Source of the DNA: Burkholderiaceae bacterium
GTDB lineage: Bacteria; Pseudomonadota; Gammaproteobacteria; Burkholderiales; Burkholderiaceae
Reading direction: 5' to 3'
Length of the DNA: 37,097 bases
Assembly: GCA_947461805.1 (NCBI GenBank)
Contig: CANHMJ010000002.1
Location: forward strand, 1-37,097
The notes under the pieces are model-generated. The model searched no databases. It was given only the letters and a program-made list of their open reading frames with translations, and had not been told where the DNA came from. Below are positions 15,983 through 33,049 of this stretch, piece after piece (position 1 is the stretch's first letter; every line of letters starts with the position of its first letter). The position numbers were made by a program, and so were the translations under genes.

Positions 15983-17752
15983 ATGGTAAATAAACTCAAT
16001 AGCCTGACTCGCTGGCTTCGCGACTATCACGTTCTTGCGCGTTACAGAACACAGTGGATCTTAGCGGGGCTTTTTTTACTGTTGGCCGCAGCAGCCACCT
16101 TGGCAGTGCCGTTGGCCTTTCGGGGGGTGGTCGATACTGGCCTAACCAGTAATGCCATTGACTTGCAGTTCATTTACTTATTGCTATTGGCGGCTGTCTT
16201 GGCGGTAATGACCGCCAGCCGTTTTTACATGATGTCGTGGCTGGGTGAGCGCGTCGTGGCAGATATCCGGCAGCGCGTTTTTGAAAACGTATTGCGCCAA
16301 AGCCCCCGCTATTTTGAAACCCTGCAAACAGGGGAAGTGTTATCGCGCTTAACGAGCGACACCACCTTAGTGCAAACCTTGGTAGGGTCAAGCATCTCGA
16401 TTGCACTCCGCAGTTTGGTGATGTTAATTGGCGGCATGACCATGATGCTGGTGACCAGCGCTTGGTTGGCCGGCATCATGATTATTCTGCTTGCCGTCAT
16501 TGTCTTGCCGCTCTGGGCGCTGGGCCGGCGCGTACGAAAAATGTCACGCACAAGCCAAGATAAAGTTGCTGATACGAGTGCCATGGCTGGAGAGGTATTG
16601 AACGCCATCACGACGGTGCAAGCATTTACCCGTGAGCCCCATGAACAGCAGCGCTTTAATGCGGCAGTAGAAGCTGCTTTCCTAGAGGCGAAGAAGCGCA
16701 TCACTATGCGCTCCTTGCTTACCGCCATGGCGATTGTGATGTCCTTTGGTGTGATCGTATTTGTACTTTGGATTGGGGCGCAGCAAGTAACTGCCGGGGT
16801 GATGACCTTAGGTGAGCTAACGCAGTTTGTGCTCTATGCGGTATTGATCGCTGGATCGATTGGCGCGCTTTCGGAGACTTGGGGTGATTTACAGCGGGCA
16901 GCTGGGGCCATGGAGCGCTTGGTTGAGTTAATGCAAGCAACGCCCGACTTGGTTTATCACGATGCCACTACCAGCCAAGAGCGAATTCCGTTCCAGCCCC
17001 CATCGCCATCGGCCCCTCAAGTGGATGCGATGGTATTCAGTAGCGTGTCATTTGCGTATCCGTCCCGCCCCGACTTTATGGCCATCAAAGGCCTTTCATT
17101 TGCAGTGCGGCAAGGCGCTCGGTACGCACTAGTGGGGCCGTCTGGGGCTGGCAAAAGTACCTTGTTTGCGATGCTCTTACGTTTTTATGCACCGACGATT
17201 GGGCAGATTGCTGTTTTTGGCCGAGACATTACGCAATGGCCAGTAAGCGAACTACGTAATCTGATTGGCATTGTTCCGCAAGAGCCGATTATTTTTGCCT
17301 CGAGCGCCATGGAAAACATTCGCTATGGCAAATTGGATGCAAGCGATGAAGAAGTGATTGCTGCTGCAAAAACGGCCCATGCCGATGGGTTTATCTCTGC
17401 GTTGCCAGAAGGCTACAGCAGCTTTTTAGGAGAGCGTGGTGTGCGCTTATCGGGTGGACAAAAACAACGGATTTCGATTGCCCGGGCCATATTAAAGAAT
17501 CCACCCATCTTACTTTTGGACGAGGCTACCAGCGCGCTTGACGCAGAATCCGAACGTGAAGTTCAGTTGGCCTTAGATAGCGTGTTACCAGGAAGAACAT
17601 CTCTGACGATTGCCCACCGTTTGGCTACGGTGCTGCGCGCCGATTGCATCTTGGTCTTAGAAGAAGGGCAGTTAGTTGAGCAGGGGAGTCACGCTGATCT
17701 GATCAAGCAGGGCGGATTGTATGCGCGCCTGGCTGACTTGCAATTTGCCTAA
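15983..17752 (+). CDS. ABC transporter, fused permease/ATPase (MsbA/ABCB-like exporter)
   Basis: N-terminal TM domain; Walker A GPSGAGKST, signature LSGGQKQRISIARAI, Walker B ILLLDEATSALD. Confidence 0.92.
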   Translation: MVNKLNSLTRWLRDYHVLARYRTQWILAGLFLLLAAAATLAVPLAFRGVVDTGLTSNAIDLQFIYLLLLAAVLAVMTASRFYMMSWLGERVVADIRQRVFENVLRQSPRYFETLQTGEVLSRLTSDTTLVQTLVGSSISIALRSLVMLIGGMTMMLVTSAWLAGIMIILLAVIVLPLWALGRRVRKMSRTSQDKVADTSAMAGEVLNAITTVQAFTREPHEQQRFNAAVEAAFLEAKKRITMRSLLTAMAIVMSFGVIVFVLWIGAQQVTAGVMTLGELTQFVLYAVLIAGSIGALSETWGDLQRAAGAMERLVELMQATPDLVYHDATTSQERIPFQPPSPSAPQVDAMVFSSVSFAYPSRPDFMAIKGLSFAVRQGARYALVGPSGAGKSTLFAMLLRFYAPTIGQIAVFGRDITQWPVSELRNLIGIVPQEPIIFASSAMENIRYGKLDASDEEVIAAAKTAHADGFISALPEGYSSFLGERGVRLSGGQKQRISIARAILKNPPILLLDEATSALDAESEREVQLALDSVLPGRTSLTIAHRLATVLRADCILVLEEGQLVEQGSHADLIKQGGLYARLADLQFA

Positions 17753-23450: not shown

Positions 23451-24305
23451 ATGACACGCTATCTCAAATCAGTCCTTTGCCTTTGCCTCTTTGCTACTTC
23501 ACTAGGATTAAGTGCGCAAACCGTCTTGCGCGTAACCACCATTCCAGAGGAAGCTGCAACCGAGCAGATGCGTAAATTTGGCCCCTTGACCAAGTACCTC
23601 GAACGTACGCTAGGCACTAAGGTCGATTTTGTACCAGTCAATGACTATCCTGCCGCAGTAGAAGCGCTCGTGAACAAGCAAGTTGACCTGGTATGGTTTG
23701 GTGGCTTCACCTATGTACAAGCGCAAATTCGTTCTGGCGGAAAGATTGTTCCCATTGCGCAGCGTGAAGAAGATACTAATTTCCGATCCGTATTTATCAC
23801 CCAAACCAATTCGGGTATTAAGCGCCTTGCTGATTTAAAAGGAAAGCAAGTCAGCTTTGGCTCGCAATCAAGTACCTCGGGCCATCTAATGCCTCGCTCT
23901 TTTTTATTGGATGCGGGAATCGATCCAGATAAAGATTTTAAACGGGTAGCCTATTCTGGAGCGCACGACGCAACCATTGCAGCGGTTGTGAGTGGTCGTG
24001 TTGATGCAGCAGCGCTAGATATAACGGTATGGCGTAAATTTGTGGCAGAAAAAAAGGTGGACACAAGTAAGGTCAACGTATTTTTCACAACTCCGCCGTA
24101 CTTTAATTACAACTGGTCGGTGCATGCAGACATGCCAGCAGCGCAACGTGAAAAAATAACTAATGCGTTGCTTATTCTCAATATGAATAATCCAGAGGGC
24201 ATTGAAATCTTGACCCTGAATCGTGCCACTAAATACATCCCCACTAAACCAGAAAACTATAAAGGCCTGGAGAGCGCAGGGCGAAGTGCCGGCTTGATTC
24301 GTTAA
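23451..24305 (+). CDS. Putative selenate/phosphonate-type ABC transporter substrate-binding protein (TIGR04553-like)
   Basis: Signal peptide; PhnD-like fold with LVWFGGFTYVQAQIRSGGKIVPIAQREEDTNFRSVFI, GKQVSFGSQSSTSGHLMPRSFL; adjacent to the sen genes. Confidence 0.8.
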   Translation: MTRYLKSVLCLCLFATSLGLSAQTVLRVTTIPEEAATEQMRKFGPLTKYLERTLGTKVDFVPVNDYPAAVEALVNKQVDLVWFGGFTYVQAQIRSGGKIVPIAQREEDTNFRSVFITQTNSGIKRLADLKGKQVSFGSQSSTSGHLMPRSFLLDAGIDPDKDFKRVAYSGAHDATIAAVVSGRVDAAALDITVWRKFVAEKKVDTSKVNVFFTTPPYFNYNWSVHADMPAAQREKITNALLILNMNNPEGIEILTLNRATKYIPTKPENYKGLESAGRSAGLIR

Positions 24306-24312
24306 TTGACAC

Positions 24313-25176
24313 GTGCAGAGTCAAATTACTACTCGCAATGACTTTGGCATTGAGCTGAGCGAGGTCACTGCTCAGCATCCCGCGGCATCGGAACACGCTC
24401 CCCCAGCAATTCAAGGACTCAGCTTAGTAATCGCACCAGGGGAGCATGTCGCCATCATCGGCCCCTCAGGTTCGGGTAAAACCAGCTGTCTGCTAGTGAT
24501 TGCGGCCGCTTTAAAAGTACAGTCTGGAAATATCGCACTAAATAACCAGTCCGTTTGGAAGTTGCCCATGCGTAAGCTGCAAAAATTACGCGGTAATCTT
24601 TTTTATGCGCCGCAAACTCCACCCTTACCCCCTCGGCAGCGTGTCATTACTGCACTCCTAGCAGCTAAATTACCAGTACAGTCTTTCTTTGCTAGCCTGA
24701 TGAGTTTGATTTATCCCCGGGATATAAAAGAAGCCAGTGACGCTCTTGCGCAATTTGACCTTGCGGATAAGCTTTGGCAACGGGTAGACCGCCTTTCTGG
24801 CGGTGAGCGCCAGCGTGTTGGATTAGCACGTGCCTTGCTGGCGCCTGCAAAGATCTGGTTAATTGACGAGCCACTTTCGGCCTTAGATCCCACCCGAGCA
24901 CGCCAGGCTATCGAAAGCTTGATTACACATGCTAAAGAGCATGGGGTTACTTTAATTACGAGCTTGCACCAAGTGGACGTGGCAACGACCCAATTTCCAC
25001 GTGTCATTGGCTTGCGTGATGGAAAGCTGGTCTTTGATCTGCCGAGCGGCGAAGTCAGTAAAGAACATTTGGCAGATCTGTATAAGCAGCATGAACACGA
25101 GCTTGATCAAACTACACCTGTCTCACTCGATATTCCTCCTGAGCCAGCTCCAGTCAAGATCATTCACTGTCGGTAA
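24313..25176 (+). CDS. ABC transporter ATP-binding protein (PhnC-like)
   Basis: GTG start; Walker A GPSGSGKT, LSGGERQRVGLARAL, Walker B IWLIDEPLSALDP. Confidence 0.88.
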   Translation: MQSQITTRNDFGIELSEVTAQHPAASEHAPPAIQGLSLVIAPGEHVAIIGPSGSGKTSCLLVIAAALKVQSGNIALNNQSVWKLPMRKLQKLRGNLFYAPQTPPLPPRQRVITALLAAKLPVQSFFASLMSLIYPRDIKEASDALAQFDLADKLWQRVDRLSGGERQRVGLARALLAPAKIWLIDEPLSALDPTRARQAIESLITHAKEHGVTLITSLHQVDVATTQFPRVIGLRDGKLVFDLPSGEVSKEHLADLYKQHEHELDQTTPVSLDIPPEPAPVKIIHCR

Positions 25177-25182
25177 TCAGCA

Positions 25183-26025
25183 GTGTCCGCGTCTTTAGCC
25201 CAACCTATTAACCCTGCGCTACGAGATCCGGCTTGGATGGGCCGACTATTTTGGTCGATAGCGATCCTTGTTCTCTTGGTGCCCGCATTCGTCGCAACGG
25301 AGTTTAGGCCTTGGATTTTGCTGGAATCGGAGAATCTCAAAGTCAGCTCTCGATTTCTAGCGGATTTTTTCCCGCCCGAGACAAAGCCTGATTTTTTGTT
25401 ACTCGTTGCCAAGGAGGCGTGGCGAACCATTGCGATTGCAACCGCCGGTACTTTTTTAGCGCTGCTACTAGCAATCCCACTGACATTGATCTCAACCCGG
25501 GTGTTATCGATCTCATCCTTATCGGGACGAATGCATCATTTGCCGTTTGCTGTACGTCAACTCGTGCGTTGGATTTTAATTATCATTCGCAGTGTTCCCG
25601 AGTTAATTTGGGCCTTGGTATTTGTCCGGGTCGTTGGACTTGGACCAGCTGCAGGGGTCTTAGCAATTGGCTTAACGTATGCAGGGATGCTGGGTAAGGT
25701 CTACACCGAGATCCTGGAAAGTGGTGATCATCACGTCTCAAGTAATTTAATGCGCAATGGCTCTAGTCGCTTACAAGCATTCTTTTATGGAGTCTTGCCA
25801 CAGAACGTAACCGAGCTGACTAGCTATACCGTGTATCGCTGGGAGTGCGCTATTCGGGCATCTGCTGTGCTTGGATTTGTGGGAGCAGGGGGCCTCGGGC
25901 AACAACTTGATAATTCGATGCGGATGTTTAATGGCGGCGAGGTAGCAACCATTTTGATCGTCTTTATGCTCTTAGTTGGCTTAGCAGACCTATTAAGTGC
26001 CTGGCTCAGAAAGATCTTGCAATGA
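25183..26025 (+). CDS. ABC transporter permease 1 (PhnE-like)
   Basis: GTG start; EAWRTIAIATAGTFLALLLAIPLTLIS, IIRSVPELIWALVFVRVVGLGPAAGVLAIGLTYAGMLGKVYTEILE. Confidence 0.88.
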   Translation: MSASLAQPINPALRDPAWMGRLFWSIAILVLLVPAFVATEFRPWILLESENLKVSSRFLADFFPPETKPDFLLLVAKEAWRTIAIATAGTFLALLLAIPLTLISTRVLSISSLSGRMHHLPFAVRQLVRWILIIIRSVPELIWALVFVRVVGLGPAAGVLAIGLTYAGMLGKVYTEILESGDHHVSSNLMRNGSSRLQAFFYGVLPQNVTELTSYTVYRWECAIRASAVLGFVGAGGLGQQLDNSMRMFNGGEVATILIVFMLLVGLADLLSAWLRKILQ

Positions 26026-26825
26026 TCAATCCACAGGCCAATCCATGGTTTCGTTGGAACTGCTCGGTGTGCTGGGTCACGCTGGGCATATTGCTATTAA
26101 CGATCCTCAGTTTTTGGACTTTGGATCTTCAGTTAGAGCGATTATTTTCGGTTGATAGCGCCAAGCTTATGGGGCGGTTTTTAGGTGAACTTCTATCACC
26201 TGACGTACGGGCTGTTTTTTTACATAAACTGTGGATTGCTAGCGTAGAGACCTTGGCAATGTCGGCAGTGGGCACTATCTTGGCTGCTTTTTTTGGCTTA
26301 CTGCTGGCAATTCCGGCAAGTAAAAGTCATCCTGGTGACCCTGCACATTGGCGTTTTTTATGTCGTCTCATACTGAATGGCCTGCGCTCCATACCCGAAC
26401 TCGTATGGGCAGCGTTAGTCTTGATATCAGCCGGCTTAGGGCCATTTGCCGGGACACTCGCATTGGCGCTACACACTACGGGTGTTCTTGGGCGCTTGTT
26501 TTCGGAGTCGATCGAGAATGCACCGCAAGCAGCAGCGCAAGCTCTGCGTGTGCAGGGCGCTTCAGAGAGTCAAGTATTTTTATACGCCACCTTACCCACG
26601 ATCATTCCGCAACTCATGTCCTATTCCCTGTATCGCTGGGAGAATAATATTCGTGCAGCTGCTATTTTGGGCGTGGTGGGCGGAGGTGGCTTGGGGCAAA
26701 TGCTAGCGTTTCATATGGGTCTATTTCAAATGCAAGAGACCAGTAGTATCTTGATCGCCATGATATTACTTGTTGTTCTGGTCGATACCTTGTCTTACAC
26801 TGCTCGACGTCTGATGTCACGCTAG
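26022..26825 (+). CDS. ABC transporter permease 2 (PhnE-like)
   Basis: ATGA overlap with permease 1; LRSIPELVWAALVLISAGLGPFAGTLALALHTTGVLGRLFSESIE. Confidence 0.88.
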   Translation: MINPQANPWFRWNCSVCWVTLGILLLTILSFWTLDLQLERLFSVDSAKLMGRFLGELLSPDVRAVFLHKLWIASVETLAMSAVGTILAAFFGLLLAIPASKSHPGDPAHWRFLCRLILNGLRSIPELVWAALVLISAGLGPFAGTLALALHTTGVLGRLFSESIENAPQAAAQALRVQGASESQVFLYATLPTIIPQLMSYSLYRWENNIRAAAILGVVGGGGLGQMLAFHMGLFQMQETSSILIAMILLVVLVDTLSYTARRLMSR

Positions 26826-26900: not shown

Positions 26901-28052
26901 ATGCCCCATACCCCATTAGCCGATCACCTCCTGTATGAGCCCCATCCTAGTTCTGCGCTTTTGGATGGCTGGCTGCTCAGTACGAATAGCCTGACACGCA
27001 GCATTCTGGAAAACATGAGGCCGGGCGATGAAGTAGTTGCGATCGATGCCATTTTAAATCCCCCGCATTGGGAGTTTGGTCACCTCACGTGGTTTCATGA
27101 GTTTTGGGTGCATCGCGGTGGGCAGGTATCTAGCCCATCCCTATTGCATGACGCCGATTATCTATTTAATTCTTCTGAAATTGCGCATCGGGATCGATGG
27201 ACAATTCCTATTCCACCGCTGGATGTACTGCTTGATTACAACGCACGCGTTATGCAAAAGACGCGCGAGCTCCTAGTAAAGCCCATTGATGCAGAGAAGG
27301 CCTACTTTATTCAGTTAGCCATTTTTCATCAGGATATGCACAATGAGGCTTTTGCGTATATGTGGCAAACCTTAGGCTATCCGTCACCATTCGAACCATT
27401 TTCTCTACCTAAGTTAGCTACTAATCCAGCGTCCGCAACCATTCATTTTCCAGAAACGAAAGTAATGGTTGGCTCTGAATCCAAGAGTGGTTTCATTTTT
27501 GATAATGAAAAGTGGTCGCATTCGATAACGTTATCCGCTTTTACTATTGCGGAGCGGGCCGTGAGCAATGCCGACTATTTGGAATTCATTGAATCACCAG
27601 CAAATCAAGCCGATTTGAACCCAGTCACAGCCCCAATGCATTGGAAAAAGGAAAGGGGGGTGTGGTACCAGCGCTATTTTGATGCGTGGCAGGGTTTTTC
27701 TGAGCTTGAACCAGTACGGCACATTTCCTATAGTGATGCCAAACGGTATTGTGAGTGGCGTCAATTGCGCCTTCCTAATGAGCATGAGCTCAGCGTATTA
27801 ATGGCTCAAAAACAGCACGATTGGCAACCGTCCCAGTTATGGGAATGGACGAGCAGCCCGTTTGCACCCTTTCCTGGATTTAGCAGTGACCCCTATGCCG
27901 ATTACTCCCAGCCGTGGTTTGATGGGAACCATCAGGTCTTAAAGGGGTGGAGTATGTATACCCCGGAGCGCTTGAGACGTAGTAGCTTTCGTAATTTTTA
28001 CGCCCTGCATCGCCAAGACCATTTTTGCGGCTTTCGCACGTGTTTACTCTAA
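26901..28052 (+). CDS. senA: Selenoneine synthase SenA (EgtB-like: DinB_2 + FGE-sulfatase domains)
   Basis: NPPHWEFGHLTWFHEFWVHR, FHQDMHNEAFAYMWQTLGY (candidate metal ligands H61, H143, H147) and FGE C-terminus WEWTSSPFAPFPGF...FRNFY...FCGFRTCL. Called SenA rather than EgtB from the NPPxWExGHxxWFxEFW style and adjacency to selD/senB. Confidence 0.78.
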   Translation: MPHTPLADHLLYEPHPSSALLDGWLLSTNSLTRSILENMRPGDEVVAIDAILNPPHWEFGHLTWFHEFWVHRGGQVSSPSLLHDADYLFNSSEIAHRDRWTIPIPPLDVLLDYNARVMQKTRELLVKPIDAEKAYFIQLAIFHQDMHNEAFAYMWQTLGYPSPFEPFSLPKLATNPASATIHFPETKVMVGSESKSGFIFDNEKWSHSITLSAFTIAERAVSNADYLEFIESPANQADLNPVTAPMHWKKERGVWYQRYFDAWQGFSELEPVRHISYSDAKRYCEWRQLRLPNEHELSVLMAQKQHDWQPSQLWEWTSSPFAPFPGFSSDPYADYSQPWFDGNHQVLKGWSMYTPERLRRSSFRNFYALHRQDHFCGFRTCLL

Positions 28053-28112: not shown

Positions 28113-29159
28113 ATGACTACTTCCTATAATGGCCGCCTGACTTCTTTATCGCATGGTGGAGGCTGCGGCTGCAAGATTGCTCCGGGCATCCTGAGCGATA
28201 TTCTGAAAGCCTCACCCATCCGCAATTTACCGGCCGCGCTGCTGGCCGGTTCTGACAATAATGAAGATGCCGCGGTCTATCAAATTAATGAGCACCAAGC
28301 GATTGTGGCCACAACGGATTTCTTTATGCCCATCGTGGATGATCCCTTTGAGTTTGGCCGGATCGCCGCAACCAATGCCATTTCGGATATCTATGCCATG
28401 GGTGCGCAGCCTCTTTTTGCACTCGCTCTATTAGGTATGCCGATTGCAGTTTTACCCTTAGAGGTAATTCAACAGGTAACGGCAGGCGGTGAATCCGTTT
28501 GCAATGACGCTGGCATCATGATCGCTGGTGGCCACTCGATCGATACGGTCGAGCCCATTTATGGCTTAGTAGCGATTGGTATCGTCGACCCCAAAAAACT
28601 CAAGCTCAATAGTGGCGCCCGGGCAGGCGACAGTATCATTTTAAGTAAGCCATTAGGGGTAGGCATACTCTCTGCCGCTCTGAAAAAAGAGCTGCTTTCA
28701 GCGGCAGGCTATCAAGAGATGATTGCGCTGACGACCAAATTAAATAAGCCTGGTGTTGCCCTCGCGCAGCTAGAAGGAGTCCATGCTCTAACGGATGTCA
28801 CCGGTTTTGGCTTGGCAGGACATCTTTTAGAGATGGCCAGGGGATCAAAGTTAATGGCGCAGGTCTACTGGGATGCTATTCCGGTGATTCAGGAAGCAGT
28901 TGAACATGCCAAGGCTGATATCTATACCGGCGCCTCTACGCGCAATTGGGCTGGCTATGGCGGTGAAGTAACCCTCGCGAGTAATTTAGCGATATGGCAA
29001 CAAAACCTCTTGACCGATCCTCAGACGAGTGGCGGCCTGCTCATTTCGTGCGCGCCAGAACAAGAAGCTGAAGTCCTCTCGATTCTCAATTTAGGCGGCT
29101 TTGCTAGTGCAAAGAAAATAGGTCATTTTGCTGCGGGGACCGGACTATCCGTTGTATAG
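28113..29159 (+). CDS. selD: Selenophosphate synthase SelD (Cys-type); predicted SenC role
   Basis: SHGGGCGCKIAPGIL, NEDAAVYQI, TTDFFMPIVDDPFEFGRIAATNAISDIYAMG, LTDVTGFGLAGHL, DPQTSGGLL. Catalytic position C18 is TGC (28164-28166). Confidence 0.95.
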   Translation: MTTSYNGRLTSLSHGGGCGCKIAPGILSDILKASPIRNLPAALLAGSDNNEDAAVYQINEHQAIVATTDFFMPIVDDPFEFGRIAATNAISDIYAMGAQPLFALALLGMPIAVLPLEVIQQVTAGGESVCNDAGIMIAGGHSIDTVEPIYGLVAIGIVDPKKLKLNSGARAGDSIILSKPLGVGILSAALKKELLSAAGYQEMIALTTKLNKPGVALAQLEGVHALTDVTGFGLAGHLLEMARGSKLMAQVYWDAIPVIQEAVEHAKADIYTGASTRNWAGYGGEVTLASNLAIWQQNLLTDPQTSGGLLISCAPEQEAEVLSILNLGGFASAKKIGHFAAGTGLSVV

Positions 29160-29171
29160 GAAGGCCATACA

Positions 29172-30107
29172 GTGAAACAGACCTTGCTTGAAGAATTGCA
29201 TCTGAGCCTAACTGCGGATGTGCCGTTTATATCCCCCAAGTTTTTCTACGATGAGATCGGCTCGCATCTCTTTGATGTCATTACATTGCTCGAGGAGTAT
29301 TACCCAACGCGAACAGAGCAGTGGATCATGGATGCCCATCGCGCTGCTATTGCCAAGGCCGTAGGCTACTGCGACGTATTGCTCGACCTTGGAGCGGGCA
29401 ATTGCGCTAAGGCAAGCCAGCTTTTCAATAGCATTAAACCAAAGCAGTACCGAGCATTGGATATCTCAAAAGAATATTTGGAAGCGGCCGTTGCTGATCT
29501 GCAAAAACAGTTTCCACAGATTGCCATGCGCGCAGAAGCGATTGACTTAAGCTTGCCTATGGCATTTCCGGATATTGCAGAACGCCATAAGATCTTTTTC
29601 TTTCCAGGATCCTCGATTGGAAACTACGATCCTGAAAAAGCAGACCATTTTTTTACGAATATCGCGCAGGAATGCCATGGCAATGGCGGCCTCTTAATCG
29701 GCGTTGACTTAGTCAAGGATCGTGAAACCTTGCATCTTGCGTATAACGACCCTTTGGGGGTTACCGCAGCATTTAATTTAAATATTCTGTTAAACGTCAA
29801 TCGAATCATGGGCAGTAACTTTCATCTGCCGAATTGGGAACACGTCGCCTTTTTTAATGAATCCCTGTCCCGCATTGAGATGCACCTGCGTGCGCGAGCG
29901 GATCTAGAGGTGATTCTCCCCAGTGATGGTACTAAAGAGCATGTGATTCAGTTCAAGGTCGGTGATTTGATCCATACCGAAAATAGCTATAAATACACGC
30001 AAGACGACTTTACAGAAAAACTCCTCCGTGCAGGGTTTGATCCTATCCACACGTGGACGGATCCCAAGCAACACTTTTTAGTGTGCTTTGCCAATGCGAA
30101 GAACTGA
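29172..30107 (+). CDS. egtD: L-histidine N(alpha)-methyltransferase EgtD
   Basis: GTG start 12 nt after selD; FYDEIGSHLFDVITLLEEYYPTRTE, LLDLGAGNCAKA, FFPGSSIGNYDP, YNDPLGVTAAFNLNIL, HTENSYKYTQDDF. Confidence 0.93.
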   Translation: MKQTLLEELHLSLTADVPFISPKFFYDEIGSHLFDVITLLEEYYPTRTEQWIMDAHRAAIAKAVGYCDVLLDLGAGNCAKASQLFNSIKPKQYRALDISKEYLEAAVADLQKQFPQIAMRAEAIDLSLPMAFPDIAERHKIFFFPGSSIGNYDPEKADHFFTNIAQECHGNGGLLIGVDLVKDRETLHLAYNDPLGVTAAFNLNILLNVNRIMGSNFHLPNWEHVAFFNESLSRIEMHLRARADLEVILPSDGTKEHVIQFKVGDLIHTENSYKYTQDDFTEKLLRAGFDPIHTWTDPKQHFLVCFANAKN

Positions 30108-30132: not shown

Positions 30133-30154
30133 AGTTAATGCGCAGTTAATGCGC
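30133..30154. repeat. Two tandem copies of an 11-bp unit AGTTAATGCGC
   Basis: 30133-30143 and 30144-30154 identical; overlaps the senB stop codon. Confidence 0.9.
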
Positions 30155-31105
30155 AATTAGACTGCCCACTAACTCTTTTATAGATTGTTTTTCACGCGCT
30201 GGTGTAATTAGCTCTCTGCGTAAATTAATACACTTTTGCAGTGAAGCATAAAAGGCGGGTGTGTTTTCTGCGCGATATAAAAGCGTAGCCAGTGCATGCT
30301 CATCGGCCACTGGGTGGTACCCAGGGTAGTCTTCACCCAGCAAGCCGCGATTGCCTGGAATGTCGGATGCGATCACTGGAATACCGAGTGCAATCGCCTC
30401 GGAGACGACGTGAGCGCCACCTTCCATGCGGCTGGAAATGACCATCAGGCGACTTTGAGCAAGTATCTTCAAGGCATCTGCATGACTTATCTCACCAAGC
30501 CACTCGTAGCGATCGACTGTTGCATTAAAGTTTGTGGCTTGGTCTTTCATTTGGGAATTCATTGCCTGACCTAAATGCTTTACCGTAATTTTAGAATCGG
30601 ATGGCAAGAATGGGAGGCTCCGCACCACACAAAAGGGATCCTTCTCTTCCCTCAGGTGCCCAATAATACTCACTACAAAATCGTCTTTCGTAAGCAAATC
30701 TGCTGTATCAACCTCAACCGATTGATAGATAACTTGGACTTTATCTCGAAGGCGAGCGGGTACCGAATCGACTGCGGCTGACTGCAAGACAATGAGCTGA
30801 TCTGCCATCTCCATCGACTCCATCACTTCACTGTGATTTGCTATGTCTCGATAAATATCAGTCCCGGTCAAAATCAAAACAAGGGGTTTGATGGGGTATT
30901 GTTTCTTAAAATCCACAATCGATTGGTAGCTGCGATACGCATGCAGTGCGATTAATAAACTGGCATCACCTCCAGACCACGACTCGGTTACCTCGACCGA
31001 ATAGCCAAGCTCCTCCAAAAACCCTTGCCAGCGCAGGGCAGTCATCCGGTTTCCATGAAGGCTCCCCAGTGGTGCGGGGGTCACGATTTCAATAAGGGGT
31101 TTGAT
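30146..31105 (-). CDS. senB: Selenosugar synthase SenB (TIGR04348-family glycosyltransferase)
   Basis: TPAPLGSLHGNRMTALRWQGFLEELGYSV...LLIALHAYRSYQSI, VISSRMEGGAHVVSEAIALGIPVIASDIPGNRGLLGEDYPGY. Start placed at ATC 31105 (AAAGG 6 nt upstream); track start is GTG at 31084. Confidence 0.8.
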   Translation of the reverse strand: MKPLIEIVTPAPLGSLHGNRMTALRWQGFLEELGYSVEVTESWSGGDASLLIALHAYRSYQSIVDFKKQYPIKPLVLILTGTDIYRDIANHSEVMESMEMADQLIVLQSAAVDSVPARLRDKVQVIYQSVEVDTADLLTKDDFVVSIIGHLREEKDPFCVVRSLPFLPSDSKITVKHLGQAMNSQMKDQATNFNATVDRYEWLGEISHADALKILAQSRLMVISSRMEGGAHVVSEAIALGIPVIASDIPGNRGLLGEDYPGYHPVADEHALATLLYRAENTPAFYASLQKCINLRRELITPAREKQSIKELVGSLIAH

Positions 31106-31117
31106 GTTCGGCCTTTA

Positions 31118-32635
31118 TTAAGCGTTCTTAGTCTTTAGTTTAGCCGTTAGCAAGGCTTGCGCTAACAAAGCCAAAATAGCTGCCGGAATTGCTCCCGCAA
31201 GCATCAGGGTATGGTCATTGACTGCAAGCCCAGCCACGATGCGATCACCAAAGCCGCCAGCGCCGACGAGTGCTGCCAGGGTGCATGTGCCAACGCCAAT
31301 GACGGTAGCGGATGCCAGGCCAGTCATGATGATCGATCTTGCGGAGGGAAGCTCGATGGATAAAAGCAGTTGCCTGTTGTTGCAACCTAGGGCGAGGGCC
31401 GCTTCTTTTAAATTGGCAGGTACTTCCATGAGGCCAATGTGGGTTGCATTCACAATCGGTAGCAGGCCATACAGAAAGAGGGCGATGACAGCGGGGACAG
31501 CGCCAATTTGATCTAAGGCGGCTATCAGGATGGTAAGCAGAGCCAGTGACGGAATGGTCTGCAAGATTCCAGCTGCGCCCAATATCCATACTGCAAAACG
31601 AGGGCGGCGCTGCGCCAGAATACCCAAGGGAATGCCAACCATAAGGGCAAATGCCGAGGAGATGGCGACTAACAAAACATGGTCGCGCAGTGCAGTAAAA
31701 AAATCAGGCGCAAAGAGGAGTTTAAAAAAACGAGAGGAAGTCGATGCATTATTGGCTTGAACGGACGCAGAGTTCAAAAACGTTCTCGCCACCTGTTCAA
31801 AATTAGTACCTGCTTCGGCTTGTCCGTTGAGTTTTGCCATTGTGGCTTCGTTTAATCGGTTGCTTAAGTTTTGCAGGGGCTTTTCATTAAAATCCGCGCG
31901 CATTAATAGTACTGCGTCGTAACGCGGAAATGCCTGCCGATCATCTTCGAGCAAGACTAAGTTTTGTTTCTCAATTGCCGCGTCCGTCGTGTACGCATCG
32001 ACAATATCAACATCACCACGGGCTAGAGCGCCATACGCTAAACCATGCTCCAAAACCCGTTGGGGCCCAATCGTCAGGTTATAGCCTTTGACTAGGGCAG
32101 GCCATCCATCCATGCGCGTCTTAAACTCAGGGGACAGGGCAATGCGCAGTTTCGATTGTTGCTCCGGCGTCAATCTTGTAATGTCACTGATTTTTTTGAG
32201 ACCCAAAGCATTGGCGCGATCCGCCTTCATGGCCAAGGCGTAGGAATTATTAAAGCCGAGGGGTATCGCAACCTTAAGGCCCATGGGCGCTAGCATGGCA
32301 TTGAGCTCAGCAAGCGAAACCTGAGTTTCTGGCCGCTTCAGTATCTCGCGCACAATAGTGCCCGTGTATTCAGGATAAATATCAATTTGCCCGGTGGTGA
32401 GGGCTTTCAGGACGATTGCAGTATTACCAAGACCCTGGCGATGAGTGGATTGAACCCCGGCATCGCGCAAGGATAGATTGATGATCTCGCCCAGTACATA
32501 ACTCTCGGTAAACCGCTTTGAGCCAACCGTTACATTCGGTTCTGTGGGCTGCGCTATAGCAGAGTAGCTCAATGCCAGCCCAAGGCATAAGCTGACGTTG
32601 ATCCAGGCGCGAAGAAGATAGCGATTAACTGACAA
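31118..32635 (-). CDS. OpuC/EgtU-like ABC transporter: N-terminal substrate-binding domain fused to C-terminal permease
   Basis: Signal peptide, then VTVGSKRFTESYVLGEIINLSLRDAGV...GQIDIYPEYTGTIVREIL (quaternary-amine binding fold), then TM domain HVLLVAISSAFALMVGIPLGILAQRRP...LGCNNRQLLLSIELPSARSIIMTGLA. 12 nt upstream of senB, same strand. Confidence 0.85.
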   Translation of the reverse strand: MSVNRYLLRAWINVSLCLGLALSYSAIAQPTEPNVTVGSKRFTESYVLGEIINLSLRDAGVQSTHRQGLGNTAIVLKALTTGQIDIYPEYTGTIVREILKRPETQVSLAELNAMLAPMGLKVAIPLGFNNSYALAMKADRANALGLKKISDITRLTPEQQSKLRIALSPEFKTRMDGWPALVKGYNLTIGPQRVLEHGLAYGALARGDVDIVDAYTTDAAIEKQNLVLLEDDRQAFPRYDAVLLMRADFNEKPLQNLSNRLNEATMAKLNGQAEAGTNFEQVARTFLNSASVQANNASTSSRFFKLLFAPDFFTALRDHVLLVAISSAFALMVGIPLGILAQRRPRFAVWILGAAGILQTIPSLALLTILIAALDQIGAVPAVIALFLYGLLPIVNATHIGLMEVPANLKEAALALGCNNRQLLLSIELPSARSIIMTGLASATVIGVGTCTLAALVGAGGFGDRIVAGLAVNDHTLMLAGAIPAAILALLAQALLTAKLKTKNA

Positions 32636-32695: not shown

Positions 32696-33049
32696 TTAAG
32701 CCGTTTTTAAGCGCCGGCTTTTGCGTGTGCGCTCAAAAAAATCATCTGGCTTTAGACGAACCCACGCGATAAAGCCCGCCATCTCTTCTTGCTGTTTTAG
32801 GTGTTCAATCGAGTTATATTGGCGGGCTAACTCGGTTTCTGTAAAAACCGCATGAATCTGTCGGTGGCAAATGCGGTGTAACACGACAGTTTGACGCCCG
32901 CCATGGGACTTTGGAATCAGGTGGTGTTCGTCGCGTTGTAAAGGGGGTATTGTTCTATCGCACAGCCGGCAAATCACGTCTTCAGGCTGTAGTGCTATGA
33001 ATTGACTGCGTTCAGCCTGAATTTGTTTTTTCTTGATGCGTCCAGTCAC
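32696..33049 (-). CDS. HNH endonuclease-like protein
   Basis: CRLCDR..DEHHLIPKSHGGRQTVVLHRICHRQIHAVF. Confidence 0.8.
   Translation of the reverse strand: MTGRIKKKQIQAERSQFIALQPEDVICRLCDRTIPPLQRDEHHLIPKSHGGRQTVVLHRICHRQIHAVFTETELARQYNSIEHLKQQEEMAGFIAWVRLKPDDFFERTRKSRRLKTA

Follow-up and report, generated by a model that had tools for sequence, protein, structure and literature searches.

Which compound does a transporter handle when its gene lies directly upstream of a selenoneine biosynthetic gene? The question is raised by a window of 37,097 nucleotides (the whole stretch of DNA analysed here) from a metagenome-assembled genome (MAG) that, judging from its named close relatives, appears to be of the Polynucleobacter type. 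A gene encoding a binding domain fused to a permease precedes senB on the same strand, and a sequence-only reading had taken its product for a candidate transporter of selenoneine, ergothioneine or hercynine.

A transporter fusion within a complete selenoneine locus

The neighbours of the fusion gene form a complete selenoneine locus, comprising a selenate-type phnDCEE transporter, senA, selD, egtD and senB, of which all but senB lie on the plus strand (Table 1). No ATG, GTG or TTG start of senB preserves the conserved N-terminus IEIVTPAP, and the probable ATC start is preceded by a Shine-Dalgarno-like AAAGG and kept in four close relatives. At loci L147, L149, L150 and L151, as in the window (31084-31117), the apparent senB start is this conserved ATC behind AAAGG. 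The spacing of 12 nt proposed in the sequence-only reading stands, together with the shared strand, if senB begins at the ATC (31105), and widens to 33 nt when the listed GTG (31084) is taken as the start. The arrangement itself is limited to one small clade, and other relatives place the fusion elsewhere. A small HNH-type protein (32696-33049, minus strand; its PF14279 match falls slightly short of the cut-off) is encoded some 60 nt ahead of the fusion, in the same orientation, in several relatives, which looks like ordinary synteny.

Table 1. Features of the selenoneine locus and of the fusion protein
Feature	Window position	Strand	Residues	Remarks
phnD-phnC-phnE-phnE, putative selenate ABC transporter	23451..26825	+		TIGR04553 binding protein
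senA-type selenoneine synthase	26901..28052	+		Best match NF041186, 391 bits, just below the 420 cut-off
selD/senC, selenophosphate synthetase	28113..29159	+		
egtD, histidine N-alpha-trimethyltransferase (hercynine)	29172..30107	+		TIGR03438, 333 bits
senB, selenosugar synthase	30146..31105	-		TIGR04348, 382 bits (cut-off 300); probable ATC start at 31105
Fusion ORF	31118..32635	-	505 aa	TTG start; binding domain and permease
Signal peptide			~1-29	
OpuAC binding domain (PF04069)	31772..32536	-	34-288	Cage, carboxylate and imidazole-side residues; family signature
Linker			~289-298	
Permease			312-496	
EAA loop			~412-430	

By its domains the protein belongs to the quaternary-amine ABC importers, joining a ProX/OpuCC-type binding domain to a permease, and the window genome (75% complete) contains one such fusion. 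Matches to PF04069 (OpuAC; E = 1.4e-48) and PF00528 (BPD_transp_1; residues 334-496, E = 4.6e-19) both lie above cut-off, and hydropathy and an AlphaFold model place a signal-type helix at residues 3-27. This model, built with 37 relatives (mean pLDDT 84), has a two-lobed binding domain, a flexible or disordered linker at residues 290-297 and a helical permease. The architecture described beforehand, with a signal peptide and a quaternary-amine-type binding domain ahead of a C-terminal permease, is thus borne out. Hydropathy and the model are also compatible with five membrane helices, and we predict that the permease N-terminus lies outside and the EAA loop in the cytoplasm. The EAA coupling motif, EAALALG-x9-IELP (EAALALGCNNRQLLLSIELP), is intact and falls between predicted TM3 and TM4.

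A betaine-carboxylate pocket with its own signature

To map the pocket, we transferred the ergothioneine contacts of SpEgtUC (PMC9732360) through the alignment. The cage residues of EgtU (F293, Y341, Y419, Y443 and N339) correspond to Y90, Y132, Y215, Y239 and N130 of the fusion, the carboxylate contacts (K242, T296 and R379) to K40, T93 and R174, and the imidazole-side contacts (E375 and T275) to E170 and T72. All of these residues are invariant in the 37 relatives. The aromatic cage for a trimethylammonium group fits the ligand class assigned earlier. K40, T93, R174, E170 and T72 are also common to AfProX. The positions that set EgtU specificity differ (G244 is replaced by F42 and F293 by Y90), as do I243 (R41) and T274 (N71). 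R41, F42, N71 and W178 make up a family signature, in which R41, N71 and W178, at the pocket mouth, are invariant; at these three positions N, S and L are found in the generic Burkholderiaceae binding proteins that we examined (28-35% identical). The conserved cage and contacts, the replaced specificity positions and the distinct mouth residues together describe a separate type of betaine-carboxylate pocket, whose ligand cannot be named from sequence alone. Because the signature does not differ between carriers that have senB and those that lack it, the best fit would be a ligand shared by the two groups, such as ergothioneine/selenoneine.

The fusion co-occurs with senB and egtD

Among 186 Polynucleobacter congeners, 35 have an ortholog of the fusion (42-97% identity), 62 have senB and 84 have egtD. 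senB was found in 32 of the 35 carriers versus 30 of 151 non-carriers (p=1.7e-15, a value inflated by relatedness, as are the others at genus level); the three carriers without senB are two incomplete MAGs (G331 and G353) and G356. When only egtD-positive genomes were considered, the fusion was present in 32 of 54 with senB versus 1 of 30 without it (p=1e-7), and it was absent from all eight genomes with senB but no egtD. The fusion thus tracks the combination needed for selenoneine, neither half alone.

A sample of 349 Burkholderiales contained 65 fusion carriers and 109 senB-positive genomes, with 46 having both. Here senB accompanied 46 of the 65 carriers versus 63 of 284 non-carriers (odds ratio 8.5, p=2.5e-13), and 26 of 35 versus 30 of 113 when the sample was collapsed to genera (p=7e-7). 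None of these p-values carries a correction for the genome tree, and the most conservative test took one genome per family (the first of each of 49 families), giving 10 of 12 versus 9 of 37 (p=5e-4). A distribution unlinked to senB would speak against the sequence-only reading; the association held within the genus, in the genus-collapsed order and with one genome per family.

senB is not universal among carriers. Outside Polynucleobacter, 36 of 50 named carriers have senB and 49 have egtD, and in the family sample genera g3 and g24, which appear to be Cupriavidus/Ralstonia-like, contributed 35 sampled carriers, all with egtD and almost none with senB. As about 29% of the carriers in the order sample (19/65), sampled Cupriavidus/Ralstonia-like ones included, lack senB, selenoneine cannot be the sole use of the fusion.

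We also noted variation in the sen genes themselves. The eight senB-positive Polynucleobacter without egtD suggest another selenosugar-based product or export. In G188 (L068 8688-10834) senB and an MFS-like gene overlap, and 19 kb of sequence contain no further sen gene; in G156 (L071 7358-9380) selD and senB are the only pair.

Repeated and varied linkage to sen genes

In at least 27 of the 33 Polynucleobacter carriers that could be assessed, the fusion and sen-locus genes are no more than about 10 kb apart, in several arrangements, although two of these carriers (G227 and G358) count as linked through proximity to phnDCEE only. Physical linkage also occurs at four loci outside Polynucleobacter. 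At least six arrangements were seen beside sen genes: the fusion precedes senB (the window clade; G237/G341) or senA (G206, G209, G257 and others; G245), stands divergent from senA with egtD following (G248 and G324) or divergent from senA (Undibacterium L208), follows phnDCEE (G227; Rubrivivax L216) or senB and selD (L227), or sits between an ATPase gene and a run of senA, selD, phnDCEE and egtD (Sheuella L212). On the gene tree of the fusion about nine changes of linkage are required, and the Polynucleobacter fusions fall into two distant clades, both sen-associated. A third, divergent type, with the permease first and its own ATPase, is found in G203, G207 and G307, all three with senB and egtD.

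In five Polynucleobacter carriers whose surroundings could be read (G204, G250, G252, G353 and G356), the fusion lies away from sen genes. G204, a closed genome, retains all the genes, although hundreds of kilobases separate the fusion, senB/senA/selD and egtD. In G353 the fusion occupies the same site and no sen cluster adjoins it.

Several further features of the loci were recorded. The three permease-first fusions, in the EgtU/OpuF order and with their own ATPase, are at L127 (6071-8444), L129 (6969-9288) and L130 (8920-11275). An MsbA-type exporter gene, homologous to window 15983-17752, is directly upstream of the fusion at L211, L224, L225, L238, L241, L246 and L248, and in most of those betaproteobacterial loci it runs a few bases into the start of the fusion gene. 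In G094, a closed 1.66-Mb genome (L063 6590-17720), ppc, the fusion, senA, phnC, egtD and senB are broken and selD is intact; we discarded this joint decay as evidence of linkage because the neighbouring ppc is broken too.

The missing ATPase

No OpuCA/ProV-type ATPase gene adjoins the fusion in the window, in agreement with the sequence-only reading. The only importer ATPase nearby is of the PhnC type (24313-25176), encoded on the opposite strand and belonging to the selenate-type transporter. In relatives, an importer-type ATPase gene directly precedes the fusion at L207, L212, L222 and L236; the one in Sheuella (L212) is closest to ProV (TIGR01186) and overlaps the fusion gene in ATGA. Using it as the query, we looked for the orphan OpuCA-type partner that had been supposed to lie elsewhere in the genome, and found no dedicated ATPase in the window genome (G000, 75% complete) or in the complete relative G211. 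Across 23 genomes the search returned general ATPases only, in carriers and non-carriers alike, except in G203, where the match is the ATPase beside its permease-first fusion. Since the window genome and G211 have no ortholog of the ATPase yet the EAA motif is retained, an ATPase shared in trans seems likeliest. An ATPase near the fusion in G245/G243 was considered as a partner and rejected: it is 33% identical to the Sheuella protein, sits in a purL neighbourhood and, as we interpret it, resembles LolD rather than ProV. An orphan ABC permease poses a clean question, namely which ATPase powers it.

Proposed function and alternatives

The anatomy of the fusion, its retained EAA motif, the co-occurrence with senB and egtD, the repeated and different linkages and the like behaviour of separate lineages point to an importer of a hercynine-derived betaine. 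We propose, with a probability of roughly 0.55, that the fusion provides the binding and membrane parts of a type I ABC importer whose ligand is most likely such a betaine, probably selenoneine and/or ergothioneine. The signal peptide would send the binding domain to the periplasm, where the aromatic cage would grip the trimethylammonium group and K40, T93 and R174 would hold the carboxylate. The tethered domain would then pass its ligand on to the C-terminal permease, acting as a homodimer, and the EAA loop of the permease would dock an ATPase encoded elsewhere or, in relatives such as Sheuella, by the preceding gene. Selenoneine and/or ergothioneine may in this way be imported, or recovered after leaking out, by cells that are themselves producers. 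Several observations weigh against this reading: F42 and Y90 are shared with the glycine betaine binder AfProX, some carriers lack senB, five are unlinked, the searches found no dedicated ATPase and the genomes compared are related.

An ordinary importer of osmoprotectants (glycine betaine, proline betaine or choline), placed near sen genes by chance, would account for the likeness of the cage and of F42/Y90 to AfProX, the best sequence match, as well as for the carriers without senB and for one relative annotated as a glycine betaine binding protein. We nevertheless consider it unlikely, given the strong association with senB and egtD at every level tested, the repeated independent linkage and the invariance of R41, N71 and W178, which the generic binding proteins lack. 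Import of hercynine, or of another histidine betaine without selenium or sulfur, as a precursor for SenA is improbable. Although hercynine belongs to the same ligand class and senA/egtD adjacency and the presence of egtD in nearly all carriers agree with it, carriers make their own through EgtD, so import would be unneeded, and egtD-positive Polynucleobacter without senB almost never carry the fusion.

We likewise give little credence to the idea that the fusion supplies SelD with selenium by taking up an onium form of organoselenium, for instance trimethylselenonium or a selenobetaine. The locus does include selD and a selenate-type transporter, and the aromatic cages found in this family can accept other onium ions, for example arsenobetaine (PDB 5nxy); however, the fusion is missing from the Polynucleobacter with senB and no egtD, where a selenium source would be equally useful, and present in carriers without senB. 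That the sen link reflects hitch-hiking on a mobile genomic island, with no shared function, is very improbable: gene order does vary among Polynucleobacter loci, but G204 keeps all the genes although they are far apart, and the two fusion lineages and the permease-first type have the same association.

The importer of selenoneine and/or ergothioneine thus remains our preferred reading, and the protein is a candidate for the first selenoneine (or ergothioneine) transporter known from bacteria. A literature search found no bacterial selenoneine transporter, with most subscription papers outside its reach and absence therefore unproven, and according to a 2026 review prokaryotes have no known specific, high-affinity system for selenium transport (PMC13188914). 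More tentatively, the protein could be the founder of a family of bacterial selenoneine importers, marked by a K40-R41-F42, N71 and W178 signature, that salvages selenoneine/ergothioneine and uses a shared ATPase where a dedicated one has been lost. If the preferred reading is right, the gene and its pocket, together with cultured strains, are now named for a direct test of the uptake of an organoselenium antioxidant, and release and retrieval of selenoneine in freshwater communities would be suggested.

Comparison with known systems

The senABC cluster of Variovorax paradoxus, as described, names only SenA, SenB and SenC and mentions no importer (PMC10891094). SenA, SenB and SelD/SenC are likewise present at the window locus, which differs in having the fusion.

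The closest folds to the binding domain are AfProX, Lmo1422/BilE, S. pneumoniae EgtUC and H. pylori EgtU. AfProX of Archaeoglobus fulgidus (PDB 1sw2), an OpuCC-type protein, is closest by sequence (E = 6e-39) as well as fold, with the same cage and with Tyr and Phe at positions 90 and 42. It is, however, a free binding protein for glycine/proline betaine and lacks the R41, N71, W178 and H197 of the fusion. OpuA imports glycine betaine under osmotic regulation and has its own ATPase. By sequence it is the best solved relative of the fusion permease (PDB 7ahc); it too fuses permease and binding domain, but in that order.

EgtU resembles the fusion in its Tyr cage, its Lys/Thr/Arg carboxylate contacts and its imidazole-contacting Glu (S. 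pneumoniae; H. pylori PDB 8dp6/8dp7), and both are linked to thio/seleno-histidine betaines. SpEgtU (EgtU/EgtUBC, subcluster F-III) is also a permease fused to a binding domain, which occupies residues 232-503, confirming the permease-first order given in the sequence-only reading; its authors did not test selenoneine (PMC9732360). In the fusion the equivalents of K242, T296, R379, E375 and T275 are all present, but the domain order is reversed, no ATPase gene is adjacent, and G244 and F293 are absent. Likeness to EgtU in the strict sense does not hold, and membership of EgtU is not supported. The fusion also occurs in producers of the compound, not only in consumers, and on its sequence it classifies as a variant of the quaternary-amine ABC importers that departs from EgtU in two defining features.
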